Shown here one piece after another: positions 13,477 through 21,920 of a DNA stretch of 64,000 bases. The DNA comes from Pirellulales bacterium (GTDB lineage: Bacteria; Planctomycetota; Planctomycetia; Pirellulales; JAEUIK01). How positions within the stretch are numbered: position 1 is the stretch's first letter; every line of letters begins with the position of its first letter. Under the pieces are notes generated by a model that was not told the origin of the DNA, ran no database searches, and worked only from the letters and a program-made list of their open reading frames with translations. A program made the position numbers and the translations under genes. The stretch lies in assembly GCA_019636335.1 (NCBI GenBank), contig JAHBXR010000007.1:173978-237977 (forward strand), read 5' to 3'.

Positions 13477-14448
13477 CTAGCTTCCCGACATAACCGGGAA
13501 CATCTCCCGGGTCATCGTGATCGCTGCCGGTCCGACGAGCACCACGAAAATGCCGGGGAAAATGAAGATCACCAGCGGGAAGATGAGCTTCACGGCGGTC
13601 TTGGCGGCTCGTTCCTCGGCCAACTGCCGGCGACGGGTCCGCATCGAGTCGCTCTGCACGCGCAGGGCCTGGGCGATGCTCGAGCCGAATTTGTCGGCCT
13701 GAATGAGGATCGCCGCCAGGGCGCGGAGGTCGTCGACCCCGGTGCGTACCCCCAGTTCGTGGAGGGCCTCGGCGCGCGAGCGTCCCATCTGCAACTGGAA
13801 GTTGCACAGGGCGAACTCTTCGGAGATGACCCGCGCCGTGCTCTTCATCTCTTCACTCACCTTGCGCATCGCCTGGTCGAGTCCCAGGCCCGACTCGACG
13901 CACACCACGAGCAAGTCGAGCGCGTCGGGCAACGTGAAAAAGATGCTGTCTTTGCGTTGCTTGGTGATGAACCACAGGACCAGGTCGGGCAGGTAGAAGC
14001 AGATGCCGGCAATGATCGTGGAGCCGTAGAGCGAGTCTTGCCCGAACCCGGTCGCGGCCACCATGATGCCGCCACCGAAGAAGAACCCGCCAAGCAGCCC
14101 GGCGAACTTGAGTCCCAGGAAGATGCTGGCCGCCGTTTCACTGCGAAAGCCGCCGTTGGCGAGGCGGATTTTGAGCTTGCTCTGTTCCATCTCGTTCTTG
14201 GGAACGAGCGGCGCGGCGAAGGCGGGGGCGTTCTTCGCCAGTACCTTGGCCATTTTGTCCGACTTCTTGACGGGCAGATTCTCCTCGCGCTTGCGCAGCG
14301 CGGGGTTCTTGTACTCGTCGAGCCGGTCGGACGCGCGCGAGCCCCCGGCCGCCACGATATCGAGAAACCACCAGACGCCCACGGCAAATAGACCGAAGAC
14401 CGCCAGCGGCACGAGACTTTCGAAGTTGATGAGGTCGGCGAACAGCAC
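13477..14448 (-). CDS. tadC: Tad/Flp assembly inner-membrane protein TadC
   Basis: A 323-aa type II secretion F-domain (T2SF) protein. It has an N-terminal helix (residues 5-30), a charged segment, a central helix pair and a C-terminal helix pair. The T2SF core is seen as L-P-D-A-L-D-L-L-V-V-C-V-E-S-G and A-L-H-E-L-G-V-R-T-G. The GTG start at 14448 is chosen because GTGAGG lies upstream and tadB ends 8 bases earlier. With TadB it should form the membrane platform on which the CpaF ATPase acts. Confidence 0.9.
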   Translation of the reverse strand: MLFADLINFESLVPLAVFGLFAVGVWWFLDIVAAGGSRASDRLDEYKNPALRKREENLPVKKSDKMAKVLAKNAPAFAAPLVPKNEMEQSKLKIRLANGGFRSETAASIFLGLKFAGLLGGFFFGGGIMVAATGFGQDSLYGSTIIAGICFYLPDLVLWFITKQRKDSIFFTLPDALDLLVVCVESGLGLDQAMRKVSEEMKSTARVISEEFALCNFQLQMGRSRAEALHELGVRTGVDDLRALAAILIQADKFGSSIAQALRVQSDSMRTRRRQLAEERAAKTAVKLIFPLVIFIFPGIFVVLVGPAAITMTREMFPVMSGS

Positions 14449-14456
14449 GGTTGGCC

Positions 14457-15431
14457 TCACACCTTGATGTTGACGATCTTGCGAATCACGAGCGCCCCGA
14501 GCAATTGCATCACCGCGGCGCCGGCGAGCATCTTCTTGCCCATCGGATCGGTGAAGAGCACCATCACGTATTCGGGGTTCAACTTGTACACGACCGCGAA
14601 CAGCGCCGGGGGCAGGGCCAGGAGCACGATACCCGACAGGCGGCCTTCGCCGGTGAGCGCCTGCACCTGACCCCAGATCTTGAATCGTTCGCGAACGAGG
14701 TAGCCGATCTTGTCGAGGATTTCGGCCAGGTCGCCCCCCGTCTGACGTTGCAGGATGACGGCCGTCGCGAAGAACTTCAGGTCGAGGTTCGGCATGCGGT
14801 CGCACATCTGACGCATAGCGTCTTCGAGCGGCACGCCGAACGCATGTTCGTCGGCGCAGCGGCCAAATTCGGTGCCGATCGGCGGGGTCATTTCTTCCTG
14901 CACGAGCGCCATGCCGGCCGCGAGACTATGGCCCGCACGCAACGCGCGGGCGATCAATTCCAACGCGTCGGGAAGCTGCGTGGCGAACATCTTCATCCGC
15001 TTGCGGCGGCGGAAGAGCAACCACAGCAAAGGGAGCGTCGCGGAAAACATGGCCGCCAGCGGCGTGAAGGCGACCGGGATGCCGACATAGAGCGAGACGC
15101 CCCAGCCGGCCAGCGCCATGACGCCCGAGGCAAGACAGAACTGTTTTGGTGTGAGCTTGGTATCGGCCTGCTCGAAGAGCAACTCGACGTTGCCGAAACG
15201 GGCCAGCAACTCGTGGAAGAATCCCTTCGTATCGGTCAACGGCTCGTAGAGCAGCGTCGGTTCTTTGTCGCGTTTGCCCTTCTTCGTGCCGGGCGATCCG
15301 CTCGACGTGAAGTTCGCCAGCCGGTCTTCAACCTTCTCGTCGGTCGTGTCGCGAAACATGATCGCCACGCCGCCGACGAGGGCCGCCACGCCGATAAAGG
15401 CCGCAATGCTGATGAGTAGTACAGGTGTCAT
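14457..15431 (-). CDS. tadB: Tad/Flp assembly inner-membrane protein TadB
   Basis: A 324-aa T2SF-domain protein. An N-terminal helix (residues 3-25) is followed by a charged stretch, a helix pair near 95-140, the T2SF core with L-P-D-A-L-E-L-I-A-R-A-L-R-A-G, and C-terminal helices. The Q-R-Q-T-G-G-D-L-A-E-I-L-D segment is typical of TadB. Start at 15431 (M-T-P-V-L-L) fits an N-terminal membrane segment. It follows cpaF by 54 bases and precedes tadC by 8 bases in a tight operon. Confidence 0.92.
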   Translation of the reverse strand: MTPVLLISIAAFIGVAALVGGVAIMFRDTTDEKVEDRLANFTSSGSPGTKKGKRDKEPTLLYEPLTDTKGFFHELLARFGNVELLFEQADTKLTPKQFCLASGVMALAGWGVSLYVGIPVAFTPLAAMFSATLPLLWLLFRRRKRMKMFATQLPDALELIARALRAGHSLAAGMALVQEEMTPPIGTEFGRCADEHAFGVPLEDAMRQMCDRMPNLDLKFFATAVILQRQTGGDLAEILDKIGYLVRERFKIWGQVQALTGEGRLSGIVLLALPPALFAVVYKLNPEYVMVLFTDPMGKKMLAGAAVMQLLGALVIRKIVNIKV

Positions 15432-15485
15432 GCGATTCTGTCTTGGGACGAAGGCTTGCGAAACGCGGACCACCGCGCGGCGGCG

Positions 15486-16811
15486 CTAGTCCTCCAGCAT
15501 CACGCGCTGACGGAACGCGCTGGCCGGCAAACGCACGCCAGCCTGCTCGAGGCGGTCCATGAACGCCGGTCGAATGCCGGTCGAGATGAAGCGGCCATGG
15601 GCGCGGCCGTTCTCGTCGATGCCGGTCTGCTCGAACAAGTAGATATCCTGCATCACGATCGTGTCTTGCTCCATGCCGACCACTTCCGAGATGTGCGTGA
15701 TCTTGCGCGGACCACCCTGCAGGCGGTTGGCCTGAATGATGACGTCCACGGCGCTGGCGATCTGCTGACGCATCGCCTTGAGCGGCAGCTCGAAGCCGGT
15801 CATCGTGATCAACGTCTCGAGACGGGCCAACGCGTCGCGCGGCGTATTGGCGTGGACCGTGGTCAGCGAGCCTTCGTGACCCGTGTTCATGGCCTGGAGC
15901 ATGTCGAGGGTTTCGGCGCCGCGGCATTCGCCGATGATGATGCGTTCGGGACGCATACGCAGGGCGTTGCGCACGAGGTCGGTCGCCGTGATGGCTCCCT
16001 TGCCTTCGATGTTCGCCGGGCGCGTTTCGAGCCGCACGACGTGGTCCTGCTGCAATTGCAACTCGGCCGCGTCCTCGATCGTCACGATGCGCTCGTGGTT
16101 CGGGATGAAGCTCGACAGCGTGTTCAACAGCGTCGTCTTACCCGAGCCGGTACCCCCCGAGATGATCATGTTCAAGCGGGCCTTGATGCAGCCTTCGAGC
16201 AGCATCACCATTTCGGGCGTGAAGGCCTTGTAGTTCAGCAGGTCTTCGAGCTTGAGCGGATTCGAGCCGAAACGGCGAATCGACAGCGCCGCCCCGTCGA
16301 GGGCCAGCGGCGGAATAATCGCGTTCACACGGGAGCCGTCGGGCAGACGCGCGTCGACCATCGGGCAGACTTCGTCCACGCGGCGACCCACCCGCGACAC
16401 GATGCGGTCGATGATCTGCAGCAAGTGGTTGTTATCGCGGAAGACCACGTTGGTCTTCTCCAGCTTGCCCCGACGTTCGACGTACACGCTGCGAGGGCCG
16501 TTGACCAGGATATCGCTGATCGTCGAGTCCTTGAGCAGGAACTCGAGCGGGCCGAGACCGAACGTCTCGTCGAGCACTTCTTCGATCAGCCGCTCGCGCT
16601 CGTTGCGATTGAGCAGGGTGTCTTCGGTATCGCACAGGTGCTCGATCACCAGGCGGATTTCGCGGCGCAGCGTATCGCCCGCCATCTCACCCACGCGCGT
16701 AAGGTCGAGCTTGTCGACCAGCTTCGAGTGGATGCGGCGCTTCAGTTCTTCGAACTCCGCGTTCTGCGCGCGGTCGTTCGTGCGATTCGACGTAACGGTG
16801 GGGGCAGGCAT
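15486..16811 (-). CDS. cpaF: Tad/Flp secretion ATPase CpaF/TadA
   Basis: A 441-aa hexameric secretion ATPase of the VirB11/CpaF family. The N-terminal domain (about 20-170) precedes the RecA-like domain with Walker A G-G-T-G-S-G-K-T near residues 218-226, an acidic I-E-D-A-A-E-L box, Walker [11 protein letters not shown], and the His box G-S-L-T-T-V-H-A-N. It should power assembly of Flp-type pili or adhesins. The ATG at 16811 is chosen because the extension to 16985 is Ser/Gly/Pro-rich and unlike the family. CpaE, the secretin and the pilin genes are not in this window. Confidence 0.93.
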
Positions 16812-17264
16812 GGTGGGAATTCTCTCGCCGTGGCTGGGGGGAGCCGCGCCGTCGGCGCCGCCACCCATCCCGGGCGCGTGCGACGACGAACTCGAACGGA
16901 AACGTCCAAAACGCGGAGCGAGGAGTCGCCATCTCCAGATCGCAACGTTCCCCGCGGATATCCGCTCGAAGAAAACATAGCTCACCTATTTACGGCGTTG
17001 CGGGCTGGCAAAACTGCACCGATCCTGAGGCGGCAGACGGAGTTTCGTGCGGTAACACAGGTTCCCGCGGGGTAGGGGGCATCGGCTGGCGCGGGTCGAG
17101 TGGATCGTGCCGGAGAGTCCAATGGTGACGAGCCTGAAAAGTGTCACGCCCCCCCTGCCCTTGCCGGTACGCATGGCTCGAGATTAGGCTGCAACGCGCG
17201 GAGGGTGGGCTGGAAGTACACCCCCCGAGAGCTGCTGAAAAGTGCCCGCTGCCAGGTGGAAAGA
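16812..17264. other. Divergent intergenic region between cpaF and the metal permease
   Basis: About 450 bases separate the divergent cpaF and metal-permease starts. No convincing gene was found; the minus-strand frames here are Arg/Pro-rich and lack a ribosome-binding site. The region should hold the promoters for both units, but no strong -35/-10 pair was picked out. A weak hairpin (GTGAC/GTCAC) lies near 17122-17145. Confidence 0.4.
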
Positions 17265-18764
17265 ATGCGAAGCTGGATGTTGATCGTCGTGACGCTGCTG
17301 GTCTGGGGGGGCGGAATCGGGCTCGCGCTGGCGGCCCCGCACGAAGATGCGCACCAGGCGATCGAGCATGCGGCGAAGCCGAACTCCCTCTCGCTGGTCG
17401 ACCACCGGTTGAGCTGGCCGGACTCCGCCGATGTGTGGCGGGTGGTCAGCCTGCGCGACTACAACACCCGGATCGTGTTGGCCGGCACCATGTTGCTGGG
17501 CGTCGTCGGTGGCGTCGTGGGCACGTTTATGCTGCTGCGCAAGCGAGCCCTGGCCGGGGATGTCGTGGGACATGCCTCGCTGCCCGGGATTGCCACGGCT
17601 TTCATCGTGATGGAGAGCATCTCGCCCGGCAGCGGCAAGTCGCTTCCCGGGCTGCTGACCGGCGCGCTGATCGCCGGGGCGTGCGGTCTGGCGAGCGTCC
17701 TGGCGATTCGACGTCTGACGCGGATCAAGGAAGACGCGGCGCTGGCGATCGTGTTATCGGTCTTCTTCGGCTTTGGCATCGTGCTCTTTACCGTCGTACA
17801 GAGCATTCCCTCCGGGGGCGCGGCGGGGCTGCAGGGATTCATCTTTGGCAAAGCCGCTTCGCTCGTGGCGGCGGATGTGAATCTGATCTCGGCGGCCTCG
17901 CTGGTGGTGCTCGTGATCTGCACGCTGCTTTTTAAAGAGTTGTCGCTCGTCTGCTTCGACGAGAACTATGCGGCCGCCGAAGGTTGGCCCGTCACGTGGC
18001 TCGATCTCGTACTGATGTCGCTCGTGGCGGCGGTCTCGGTCATTGGTTTGCAAAGCGTGGGCCTGCTGCTCGTGGTGGCCATGCTGATCATTCCCCCCTC
18101 GGCGGCGAGGTTCTGGACCGACGATTTGCGCCGCATGACCCTCGTCGCGGCGCTCTTGGGGGGAGCTAGTGCGGCGGTGGGCGCTCTGGGCAGTGCTTTG
18201 TTTCCCCGGTTGGCCGCGGGGGCGGTCATCGTCCTGGCCGGCGCGTTGGCGTTTGGGATCAGCCTGCTGTTTGGCACGAAGCGAGGATTTCTGCACCGCC
18301 TGCTGGCCGACCGCCGCTTGCGTCAAGAAGTCGCCGAGCAACACCTGTTGCGCGGCTGCTACGAGTTGCTCGAGGCGATTCAGCCTGTGGCCACGGCCGC
18401 GGATCTGGCGGATAGGCCGATCTCGATGATGCAATTGCTCGACTTGCGCTCGTGGAACTTCCGGCGGCTTCAGCAGGTGATCGCCCGGGCCGAACGCGAA
18501 GGATTGGTCGAGCTTCGTAGTCGAGACGTCGTGACACTGACCCGTGCCGGCGCGGTCGAGGCGCAACGCGTGGTGCGCAATCACCGACTGTGGGAACTGT
18601 ACCTGATTAACTACGCCGATGTCGCACCGAGCCGGGTCGATCGTAGCGCTGATCGAATCGAACACGTGCTCGAGCCCGAGGTGATGCGCAAGCTCGAAGA
18701 GACGTTGCGCACGAAATATCCGCGGCTGAGCGATGTTCCCCCCAGTCCGCATGCGATGGGCTGA
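17265..18764 (+). CDS. Metal ABC transporter permease (ZnuB/MntB type) fused to a DtxR-like regulator domain
   Basis: A 499-aa protein. Residues 1-25 look like a signal or first helix, and residues 60-345 form the multi-helix ABC-3 permease domain used for Zn, Mn or Fe uptake. Residues 350-490 are soluble. They contain a winged-helix-like part (R-L-Q-Q-V-I-A-R-A-E-R-E-G-L-V) and a stretch R-N-H-R-L-W-E-L-Y-L followed by D-R-I-E-H-V-L. That stretch matches the DtxR/MntR metal-binding and dimerisation domain. No ATPase or substrate-binding gene is adjacent. ATG at 17265 has a GGAAAG site. Confidence 0.85.
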   Translation: MRSWMLIVVTLLVWGGGIGLALAAPHEDAHQAIEHAAKPNSLSLVDHRLSWPDSADVWRVVSLRDYNTRIVLAGTMLLGVVGGVVGTFMLLRKRALAGDVVGHASLPGIATAFIVMESISPGSGKSLPGLLTGALIAGACGLASVLAIRRLTRIKEDAALAIVLSVFFGFGIVLFTVVQSIPSGGAAGLQGFIFGKAASLVAADVNLISAASLVVLVICTLLFKELSLVCFDENYAAAEGWPVTWLDLVLMSLVAAVSVIGLQSVGLLLVVAMLIIPPSAARFWTDDLRRMTLVAALLGGASAAVGALGSALFPRLAAGAVIVLAGALAFGISLLFGTKRGFLHRLLADRRLRQEVAEQHLLRGCYELLEAIQPVATAADLADRPISMMQLLDLRSWNFRRLQQVIARAEREGLVELRSRDVVTLTRAGAVEAQRVVRNHRLWELYLINYADVAPSRVDRSADRIEHVLEPEVMRKLEETLRTKYPRLSDVPPSPHAMG

Positions 18765-18800: not shown

Positions 18801-19223
18801 CTAAAGTGGGGGCAGAATATCGGGGCGGATCTGATAGGCATCGGCCAGCGCATTGGTCGAATTGAAGAGTGCCACGACCGAGAGCAGCTCGCCCAATGCC
18901 TCGTCGTCGAGACCGAGCTTCTTGACCGCCGCCGTGTGCGAATTGATGCAGTAGGCGCAGCCGTTCGTGGCGGAGACCGCCAGGGCGATCATCTCCTTGG
19001 TCAAGGGGTCGAGCCGCCCGGGACCCATGATCCGCTTCAATCGCTGCCAGGTCTCTTCGAGCAAAGGAGGATAGTTGGCCAGCGTCTTCCACATGTTCGG
19101 GATAAAGTCGATCTTCTTGGTGGCCATGATGTCGTCGAAGATCTCCCGCACGCGTCCGGTGGACTCGGCGTATTCGACAGGGCGAACCGTGGCGACACGA
19201 TCGGTGGGGTTCTGTTGCGACAT
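18801..19223 (-). CDS. AhpD-like / carboxymuconolactone decarboxylase family protein
   Basis: A 140-aa all-helical protein of the AhpD/CMD family. The redox motif is C-A-Y-C-I-N-S-H near residues 90-97 (C-x-x-C with a histidine four residues on), as in alkylhydroperoxidases that use two cysteines. The preceding P-L-T-K-E-M-I-A-L-A-V-S segment is the family helix. Such proteins reduce peroxides with a thiol donor; the donor is not encoded nearby. It converges on the metal permease and lies 33 bases after the PQQ-like gene on the minus strand. Confidence 0.87.
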   Translation of the reverse strand: MSQQNPTDRVATVRPVEYAESTGRVREIFDDIMATKKIDFIPNMWKTLANYPPLLEETWQRLKRIMGPGRLDPLTKEMIALAVSATNGCAYCINSHTAAVKKLGLDDEALGELLSVVALFNSTNALADAYQIRPDILPPL

Positions 19224-19256
19224 GTTGAGTTTGGCTCCGTCGTGACTTCCTGAGAA

Positions 19257-20546
19257 TTAGTTGCCACCGCCAGCGTTGGACGAGCTTGGGGCATCGACCG
19301 CGGGCAATTCGACGCACACGAGTTCGCTGTCGTCGCGCGCGAATACAGCCCGCTCGGTGTAGGCCGGATGCGCCCAGGTCGGGCCGATGATGTTCGTCCG
19401 CGATTCCTCCACGTAGCCAGCGGGCCGGAGGCGGAATAATACGAGCTCGCCATTGGCATTCAGTGCGATGGCGCGGTCTTCATCCCCCAACCAGACGAGG
19501 CTCGCCTGAGGATTGCGGTCGCGCGGCGTGAGCTGATTGCCGTCATCCCACAACTTGCGCCCACTGGCGAGTTCAAAGCAAGTCAGCCCCAGTGTCTTGT
19601 CGAGCGAATAGACGTATCCCTGTCGATAAAGGGGCTGCGACATCAGTCCGCGCAGCTCGCGCTCGTTCTCCCAAGCCAACTCAACGTTGCCCGGCTCTTG
19701 GCCCAAGCGGATAGCCTTCGAGCCCTCCCAGTAACCGCTGACGAAGACGAGGTCTTCGGCAAAGATAGGCGTGGCGATCGACACTCCGTAAGTCACCTTG
19801 TAGGGAATGCTCCACAACATCTTGCCATCGCGCGGTTGCACGCCGATGACGTGCTCGGGCGTCCAGCAGATCAATTGTGGCTGGCCGGCGCGTTCGATGA
19901 GAATCGGTGTCGCGTAACCGGCGGGATCGGTCGAGGCACGCCACACCTCCTGCCCCGTGGCACGATCGAGAGCGACAAGGCAACCATCGGGTCGTACCCC
20001 TGGTTGCAGGATCACCAGGTTCTCGAATACCACGGGGGAAGCGGCCAGTCCCCATTCGGGCAGTTGCGCCGCGTAATCGCGGACGAAATCCTTGCTCCAG
20101 ATGACTTCGCCCGTCCGCACGTCGAGGCAATAGGCGTGCCCCACCGCGCCGAGCGTGTAGACCCGATCTTCGAAGATGGTGGGGGCAGCACGTGGGCCGT
20201 TGCCGTAGTCGAGATCGCCGTAGGCGACCGGGTACGCGTGTTGCCACACGGGCTCGCCATTGTCGGCACGGTAGGCAAGCACGCGCTCGGCCTCGCCCGG
20301 CTTCCGCTGACGATCCATCGTGTAGACGAGTCCGTCGCTGGCCACCACGCCGGCGTAGCCGCCTCCGATCGGTTGGCGCCAGCGCCGCTTCAGGCCATCC
20401 GCAGGCCACTGGGCGGGTAGTTTTGGCGCCTGCCAGGTGCCGTCGCCGCGCGGCCCTCGCCACCGCGGCCAATCTTCGGCGGGCGCCAGTTTAGTCATGC
20501 TCACCAGTAGCAGGGCCCCAGCGAGCGAAGCCAGGAATCGGTACAT
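19257..20546 (-). CDS. Exported PQQ-like beta-propeller protein
   Basis: A 429-aa protein with a signal peptide (M-Y-R-F-L-A-S-L-A, cleavage near A-P-A) followed by D-W-P-R-W-R-G-P, the opening typical of planctomycete PQQ-like propellers. Repeated blades carry the pattern G-x-V-Y-x-L-D or D-x-x-T-G-x-x-x-W. It has no haem-binding motif and no clear PQQ-dehydrogenase catalytic residues, so it is more likely a structural or sugar-interacting propeller than a quinoprotein enzyme. An in-frame ATG at 20561 is an alternative start. Confidence 0.8.
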   Translation of the reverse strand: MYRFLASLAGALLLVSMTKLAPAEDWPRWRGPRGDGTWQAPKLPAQWPADGLKRRWRQPIGGGYAGVVASDGLVYTMDRQRKPGEAERVLAYRADNGEPVWQHAYPVAYGDLDYGNGPRAAPTIFEDRVYTLGAVGHAYCLDVRTGEVIWSKDFVRDYAAQLPEWGLAASPVVFENLVILQPGVRPDGCLVALDRATGQEVWRASTDPAGYATPILIERAGQPQLICWTPEHVIGVQPRDGKMLWSIPYKVTYGVSIATPIFAEDLVFVSGYWEGSKAIRLGQEPGNVELAWENERELRGLMSQPLYRQGYVYSLDKTLGLTCFELASGRKLWDDGNQLTPRDRNPQASLVWLGDEDRAIALNANGELVLFRLRPAGYVEESRTNIIGPTWAHPAYTERAVFARDDSELVCVELPAVDAPSSSNAGGGN

Positions 20547-21212
20547 GCGAATGCCAAGCATGGATGTTGAATATGGAAGGTGGGACAGAGTCGCGCCAGT
20601 GTACCCCGGGAACTTCGAGCACGAAATGTAGCAAGTCACATGATCGATAGCGCACGCATGTTCGTGGACTGGTAAGTGTCCAGCGTCTTGGGGGCCCTCA
20701 CGACTCGAAAGATACAGCGCCGTGGATGGGTTGATTCGATCCGGCGTGCTGACGGCACTGAAGGCATTGCGCGCTTTGGAGAAACGCCGATCGCTGCCAG
20801 CACGTCATTCGATATCGGCGAGGTGTTTTCAGGCAGGATCGCCCTCTCTTGGAATGGCTCCGCAGCTCAGCGATTGGCGCAAAGTGTAAAATTCTTGTGA
20901 CACGCGTCGCCGAGTCGGATGTACCCGCGCGGATTTACGAAAGGCCGCGACGCAACATCGAATCTGCCAGTCTTGTCGCGCGACGAATGCCGGTGGCGCT
21001 GCCACGGGAACTCGGACGGCAAGGCTCGTAGAGCGCGGATCGTGGCGCCACGCGGTCCGCGCCCGTTTTCTGAACAGGCGAGCCTCACCGCCACGGGTGC
21101 GCGAGCACCGATGATCGCCGACAACGCACGATCGTCGGGGAGAAAGTTCCACCGGTTTGCTGACCGCGCGCCGAAGCGGTAGCGGTCGGCGCAGCGATCG
21201 AGGGAGGTAGCC
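20547..21212. other. Intergenic region with no recognisable gene
   Basis: This 666-base stretch lies between the divergent PQQ-like and PRC-barrel genes. Several short frames are open on both strands, but none shows a ribosome-binding site plus a recognisable protein. No tandem repeat or long inverted repeat was seen. It may hold divergent promoters or a short RNA, but nothing specific can be supported. Confidence 0.4.
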
Positions 21213-21920
21213 ATGTTTTCCGCATCGATAGTTCGACTTCTGTTGGGTGTAGGGCTTCTCGGAGTTTTAATTCTACCCTGCGCCGTTTCAGCAAACGATG
21301 CTCCTGCCCAGACTCCGCAAGTGCAGGCAGCTTCTTCCTTCCGTGCCAGTAATGCGATCGGCATGCCGGTGCGCAGTCCGCTCGGCGAGAATCTCGGCAA
21401 GGTCGAGGATCTGATGTTCGACGTGCGGAGCGGACGCATCACCTATGCGATCTTGTCGCACGGTGGGTTCCTGGGCTTTGGAAGCAAGCTGTTTCCGGTG
21501 CCTTGGCGTGAGATGAATCTGCGCTTCGACGAGACGACGAACTACTTCGTCCTCGATGCGACGCCGCAGTTCCTCGAACGGGTGCCCAGCTTCGATCGAG
21601 AACATTGGCCCGATCGAGAAGCGGGCTGGCAAGAGCTCGTCGAGGGGTTGTTCCCGGTTCATCAGGGCATCGTCAAATCCGCCGGCGATAAAAAACTGGT
21701 GATGACGTTCGCCGGGGGCGAGGCCGAGCACACGCATACCGTGGCGAACGATGCGCAGATCATGCGCGACGGCAAGCCCGCGACGCTCGACGATTTGCGA
21801 GCGGGCGATCGCATCAAGGTAACCAGCGAAGAGCAGGCCGGCATCCGCGTGGTGACCAAGATCGAGGCCCAGTCCGAGTTTTTCCATGGATATCCGCTCG
21901 AGGAGAAGCAGATTCCCTAG
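21213..21920 (+). CDS. Exported PRC-barrel domain protein
   Basis: A 235-aa protein with a signal peptide (hydrophobic run L-L-L-G-V-G-L-L-G-V, cleavage after V-S-A) and a PRC-barrel domain (about residues 45-115) with A-I-G-M-P-V and G-K-V-E-D-L-M-F-D-V. A second part (145-220) has D-A-Q-I-M-R-D-G-K-P-A-T-L-D-D-L-R-A-G-D, a pattern also seen in small beta-barrel domains. The start is well defined by GGGAGGTAGCC before ATG. PRC-barrel proteins bind protein or RNA partners; the partner here is unknown. Confidence 0.82.
   Translation: MFSASIVRLLLGVGLLGVLILPCAVSANDAPAQTPQVQAASSFRASNAIGMPVRSPLGENLGKVEDLMFDVRSGRITYAILSHGGFLGFGSKLFPVPWREMNLRFDETTNYFVLDATPQFLERVPSFDREHWPDREAGWQELVEGLFPVHQGIVKSAGDKKLVMTFAGGEAEHTHTVANDAQIMRDGKPATLDDLRAGDRIKVTSEEQAGIRVVTKIEAQSEFFHGYPLEEKQIP

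Follow-up and report, generated by a model that had tools for sequence, protein, structure and literature searches.

A DtxR-like domain fused to the permeases of a probable manganese importer in Pirellulales: a candidate membrane-tethered metal sensor

We find that the gene at 17265–18764 (+) of the window, the 64,000-nucleotide stretch of contig JAHBXR010000007.1 from a Pirellulales bacterium analysed here, encodes an ABC metal permease that continues directly into a DtxR-like domain, and that this domain keeps its metal site, its DNA-reading part having apparently been lost. On balance, we favor a reading in which the protein belongs to an Mn2+/Fe2+ importer carrying tethered, DtxR-derived metal-sensing dimerization modules, with transport throttled post-translationally, by analogy with known self-inhibiting importers, and transcription left to separate repressors.

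The fusion protein and its importer

An earlier note on this DNA had described a permease and a DtxR-like domain in one unbroken frame, and this is borne out: a single uninterrupted frame of 499 aa, from the ATG at 17265 to the TGA at 18764, carries both Pfam domains above their curated cut-offs, ABC-3 (PF00950; residues 69–336, E 2e-54) and Fe_dep_repr_C (PF02742; residues 426–481, E 9.6e-15). A longer GTG frame begins at 17100, and the conserved protein start lies near 17265. The two-domain DtxR-like module spans residues 342–496 and is joined to the permease by five residues (337–341); phmmer aligns residues 59–140 of the C-terminal part with DtxR 40–121, and the motifs R438-N-H-R-L-W-E444 and R464-I-E-H-V-L469 are both present. 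The fusion is real and not an assembly artefact, since relatives are encoded in many independent genomes and the best 80 loci are almost all fused. The features of the gene and its neighbors in the window are as follows.

17265–18764, +, C-type permease-DtxR fusion gene (ORF, Pfam)
17265–17468, +, N-terminal extension: hydrophobic leader helix (residues 2–21) and a low-confidence segment with three histidines (residues 26–35) (sequence; pLDDT about 50–60)
17469–18272, +, ABC-3 metal permease domain, residues 69–336 (Pfam ABC-3, E 2e-54; PsaC fold)
18288–18380, +, helix 342–372, equivalent of DtxR helix 1, with ligand candidate H360 (codon 18342) (AlphaFold2 secondary structure)
18426–18539, +, degenerate winged-helix segment, residues 388–425 (helices 388–394 and 399–411; strands 415–419 and 422–425) (fold seen; recognition helix unconserved; PF01325 unmatched)
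18540–18752, +, metal-binding and dimerization domain, residues 426–496, with H440, E444, D459, D463, E466 and H467, and an SPH motif at 494–496 (PF02742; ligand alignment)
14457–15473, −, T2SSF protein
15486–16985, −, T2SSE ATPase
18801–19223, −, carboxymuconolactone decarboxylase-family protein
19257–20639, −, PQQ/BamB-like propeller
21213–21920, +, PRC-barrel protein

The neighbors on the opposite strand (13477–16985, −) are secretion genes of Tad/type II type, to which the frame at 13477–14805 (−) also looks related, the part of it that was scanned giving no Pfam match; the three downstream neighbors (18801–21920) have no obvious tie to metal uptake. The fusion protein's leader helix is followed by the stretch HEDAHQAIEH (residues 26–35, 17340–17369), with three histidines and acidic residues, which is possibly a periplasmic metal-collecting tail; several orthologues also have N-terminal extensions of this type.

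The AlphaFold2 model, a monomer built on a 59-sequence alignment (mean pLDDT 86.6), comprises in order the full permease, the junction at 337–341, the long helix 342–372, the helix-turn-helix (HTH) helices, a two-strand wing and a dimerization helix, with low confidence in the metal loop around residues 451–470 (pLDDT about 60). Foldseek matches the N-terminal part to PsaC, a manganese importer permease (7kyp; TM 0.89, normalized to target length), and the C-terminal part, whose structure prediction the earlier note had proposed, to DtxR/IdeR structures. Within the permease, D99, H103 and D157 (codons 17559, 17571 and 17733) form a candidate transmembrane metal triad, invariant in 59 sequences, that may correspond, by motif only, to D47/H51/D94 of Bacillus anthracis MntC (PMC8487065).

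The 6.4-Mb genome of this bacterium contains exactly two ABC-3 permeases, both fused, and its importer parts and sole separate regulator lie as follows.

Contig C7 (the window), C-type permease fusion
Contig C16, D-type permease fusion, 471 aa
Contig C18, sole ZnuA-type substrate-binding protein (SBP), with a metal ABC ATPase gene directly behind
Contig C39, sole separate DtxR protein, three-domain

The SBP and ATPase genes, permC and permD are thus split over three contigs; they most likely belong together, because in relatives they form a single operon, SBP-ATPase-permC-permD (best 80 loci; 57 genomes of the same order). A relative of the fusion protein is encoded at 473 of 508 pattern matches in species genomes, and almost all of the best 80 of these 473, from Planctomycetota, Verrucomicrobiota, Lentisphaerota and Kiritimatiellae (taxa by record titles), have the same fusion, as the orthologue search called for in the earlier note was meant to reveal. 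Both permeases are fused in most Planctomycetota loci, and the C-type alone in most Verrucomicrobiota loci. The window protein probably serves as C-type permease in an ABC importer of the PsaABC/TroABCD type for Mn2+ (or Mn2+/Fe2+); the D-H-D triad, the PsaC-like fold and the TroR/MntR-type operators described below favor Mn2+.

The earlier note considered such a sensor unusual, a view that does not hold: the architecture is frequent across the PVC superphylum, and permease-DtxR fusions have been reported in 11 phyla, with Chlamydia YtgCR as precedent (PMC5599777). The permease fold itself is that of PsaBC of Streptococcus pneumoniae and MntBC-A of B. anthracis (7kyp, about 30% identity), and the D...H...D pattern recalls the Asp-His-Asp triad that is essential in B. 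anthracis MntC (PMC8487065); in those systems, however, one permease gene gives a homodimer and there is no DtxR domain, the C-terminus of B. anthracis MntC having only a short charged helix.

A kept metal site and a drifted recognition helix

Fused domains, 79 of the C-type and 47 of the D-type, were compared in an alignment that also includes 29 separate DtxR proteins from this order. DtxR positions 79, 83, 105 and 106 are H, E, E and H in nearly all fused domains; position 98 is D in the C-type and H in the D-type, position 102 is D in the C-type and mostly E in the D-type, and position 10 is H, D or N in the C-type and D in the D-type. The window protein keeps the ligand positions in this comparison with MntR and DtxR, which had been suggested as a check, with H440, E444, E466, H467, D459, D463 and H360 at DtxR positions 79, 83, 105, 106, 98, 102 and 10, respectively; H360 aligns to MntR D8 and DtxR M10. 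PF02742 matches every protein scanned (59/59 C-type, 31/31 D-type).

Domain separation or ligand loss among orthologues, to which the earlier note had looked as evidence against a fused sensor, does occur, in part: in a few lineages the domain is separate or gone, and some C-type copies are without ligands, the partner permease then keeping an intact copy. Among the relatives read, eight have lost C-type ligands (L017, L024, L025, L026, L028, L032, L034 and L035), and the D-type keeps the full ligand set in all eight. Some genomes place an unfused C-type next to a fused D-type, and at least one relative, G055 (L033), lacks the fused domain on both permeases. The pattern suggests a single functional sensor for each transporter and not a freely decaying relic.

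The DNA-reading part behaves differently. Mean pairwise identity of the recognition helix is 0.31 (C-type) and 0.28 (D-type), versus 0.91 among the separate DtxR proteins of this alignment, with the metal core at 0.65, 0.49 and 0.81, respectively; at equal core divergence (70–85% identity), the values for this helix are 0.32 (C-type) and 0.36 (D-type) versus 0.90 (separate). PF01325, the DtxR DNA-binding family, matches three separate regulators scanned but none of the 59 C-type or 31 D-type proteins scanned, nor the window protein. The winged-helix-like segment and metal-binding pattern reported from the sequence are upheld as motifs and as a fold, but not as a recognizable PF01325 domain. 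The D-type model (pLDDT 87) superposes on the manganese regulator DR2539 and on DtxR at about 2.4 Å, so the fold survives while the DNA-contact surface drifts. The fused HTH helices stay positive in net charge (+3.4), and comparison by eye of operator class with the fused recognition helix showed no pattern.

Operators and separate regulators

When palindromes were counted without bias in the regions upstream of 63 SBP genes, two stood out, TTTTGA-N4-TCAAAA and TGTAGC-N4-GCTACA, in 11 and 12 sequences with six-base arms and in up to 16 with five-base arms, versus at most 1–2 in shuffles; Verrucomicrobiota have the box variants CTTTGA and TCTTGA. TGTAGC-N4-GCTACA resembles what we take to be the E. 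coli MntR box. TTTTGA-N4-TCAAAA equals the operator published for TroR of Treponema (AATTTTGATATATCAAAAT in T. denticola; PMC2628430), a regulator that serves a transporter of the same type, TroABCD, but is a separate, unfused protein with an intact HTH. DtxR-type TTAGG...CCTAA boxes were sought upstream of the SBP genes and none is present.

Twenty-nine genomes were read for DtxR-family proteins, and the p-values that follow take genomes as independent. A small MntR-like match is found in 12/12 genomes with the TGTAGC box, two of them (G073 and G074) assigned by Pfam match and length alone, versus 3/17 of the rest (Fisher p 1e-5). In the TGTAGC-box genomes the MntR-like gene often adjoins the operon divergently; of two such proteins, L114 scores above the NCBIfam MntR cut-off of 153 (157.4) and L062 narrowly misses it (148). 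A TroR-like regulator is present in 15 of the 17 genomes without the box (Fisher p 1e-3). From this co-occurrence and the published box, we infer that separate TroR/MntR-type repressors control transcription of the operon at a conserved operator.

In the genome of the window, a weak match to the TroR box (TTTTTGGATATCAAAA, with two mismatches) immediately precedes the probable start of the SBP gene, and no TroR-like box was found in the vicinity of the window gene. As a genome-wide regulon the TroR box was rejected here: sites with one mismatch number only two, which does not exceed the control, and both lie away from recognizable metal genes. A search near the separate dtxR genes gave no convincing operators. 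The genome of a Gimesia sp. (that of L058) has extra DtxR-like paralogues (L195, L196 and L197) with altered metal residues, one of them truncated, which are unlinked to the importer.

A possible brake on transport and competing readings

The earlier note had offered two roles for a membrane-tethered sensor, gating of transport and binding of DNA at the membrane; gating is the better supported of the two, and DNA binding is weakened by the helix drift and by separate regulators that match the operators. In the mechanism we propose, the ligand-bearing first helix of the module, which in the model starts five residues past the last membrane helix, would act as a stalk that metal clamps to the dimerization core when cytosolic metal is high. 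The C-type and D-type modules would then pair under the membrane next to the ATPases, a proposed dimer drawn from a monomer model, and the paired modules would keep the importer slow or at rest, a form of trans-inhibition by analogy with MetNI and ModBC. In MetNI and Methanosarcina acetivorans ModBC, an intracellular ligand dimerizes the C-terminal domains and stops transport (PMC10710835); the likeness would lie in the proposed way of working only, as those regulatory domains have other folds and, like the known trans-inhibition domains, sit on the ATPase subunits and not on permeases, which counts against a brake of the kind proposed. With separate repressors running the operon, the fused winged helix would therefore be free to lose DNA specificity, although rapid drift of the recognition helix could also occur in a repressor with only one target, and the positive charge of the HTH could be used by DNA or by a membrane surface.

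The closest known system suggests another outcome. In Chlamydia, the C-terminus of the YtgCR permease-DtxR fusion is cleaved and released as an iron-dependent repressor, YtgR, the only identified iron-dependent regulator in that genus (PMC5599777, PMC6504234). Were the domain here likewise cut off the permease to become a soluble metal-dependent repressor of the operon, one would expect just the shared architecture, the same gene order SBP-ATPase-C(fused)-D and the same superphylum (PMC5599777, PMC6504234), together with the conserved ligands, the positive HTH charge and the full DtxR fold that we find. Compared through published descriptions, not sequence, C. trachomatis YtgCR (CT069), of the YtgABCD iron importer, joins an ABC-3 permease to a C-terminal DtxR/TroR-like domain in one frame in the same way, and differs in that here both permeases are fused in most Planctomycetota, separate TroR/MntR-type regulators exist, the recognition helix has drifted and the junction is five residues. 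These differences make release of a repressor unlikely in our view: the recognition helix drifts although the core is conserved, PF01325 goes unrecognized in 90/90 fused proteins, the operators fit separate regulators present in the genomes, the window gene is without an operator box nearby, and a five-residue passage from the last membrane helix to helix 1 offers no obvious cleavage linker in the model, so that cleavage is less likely.

The module might also be a partly vestigial relic of fusion that serves mainly in assembly of the permease dimer, as lineages that lost the fusion or eroded its ligands, and the eroded HTH, would suggest; near-invariant ligands across Planctomycetota, Verrucomicrobiota, Lentisphaerota and Kiritimatiellae, and the retention in one permease that accompanies loss in the other, render this improbable. 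We consider quite improbable a module that accepts or buffers metal at the cytoplasmic exit of the channel and passes it to the cytosol or to a separate regulator without gating: conserved ligands beside unconserved DNA contacts, placement at the permease's cytoplasmic end and the sufficiency of one intact copy per pair all suit it, but a plain buffer has no need of the whole dimerization fold, which is conserved beyond the ligands.

Returning to the tethered sensor that we prefer, its broader form is more tentative: a DNA-binding metalloregulator of the DtxR family may, by analogy, have become, across the PVC bacteria, an allosteric module tethered to the membrane, one per permease, that forms a metal-gated heterodimer and feeds back on transport, with transcription left to separate TroR/MntR proteins. 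The architecture itself is not new; what sets this case apart is the double fusion, the lost conservation of the recognition helix and the separate regulators that match the operators, and a literature search for planctomycete permease-DtxR fusions found no paper. The idea lends itself to direct tests through the double fusion, the one-sided losses found in nature and the set of ligands. If true, a domain from a transcription factor would have been reused to restrain a metal importer by direct feedback, acting from the permeases as opposed to the ATPases in MetNI and ModBC, and this would raise the question of whether chlamydial YtgCR derives from, or has reverted from, such a tethered sensor.
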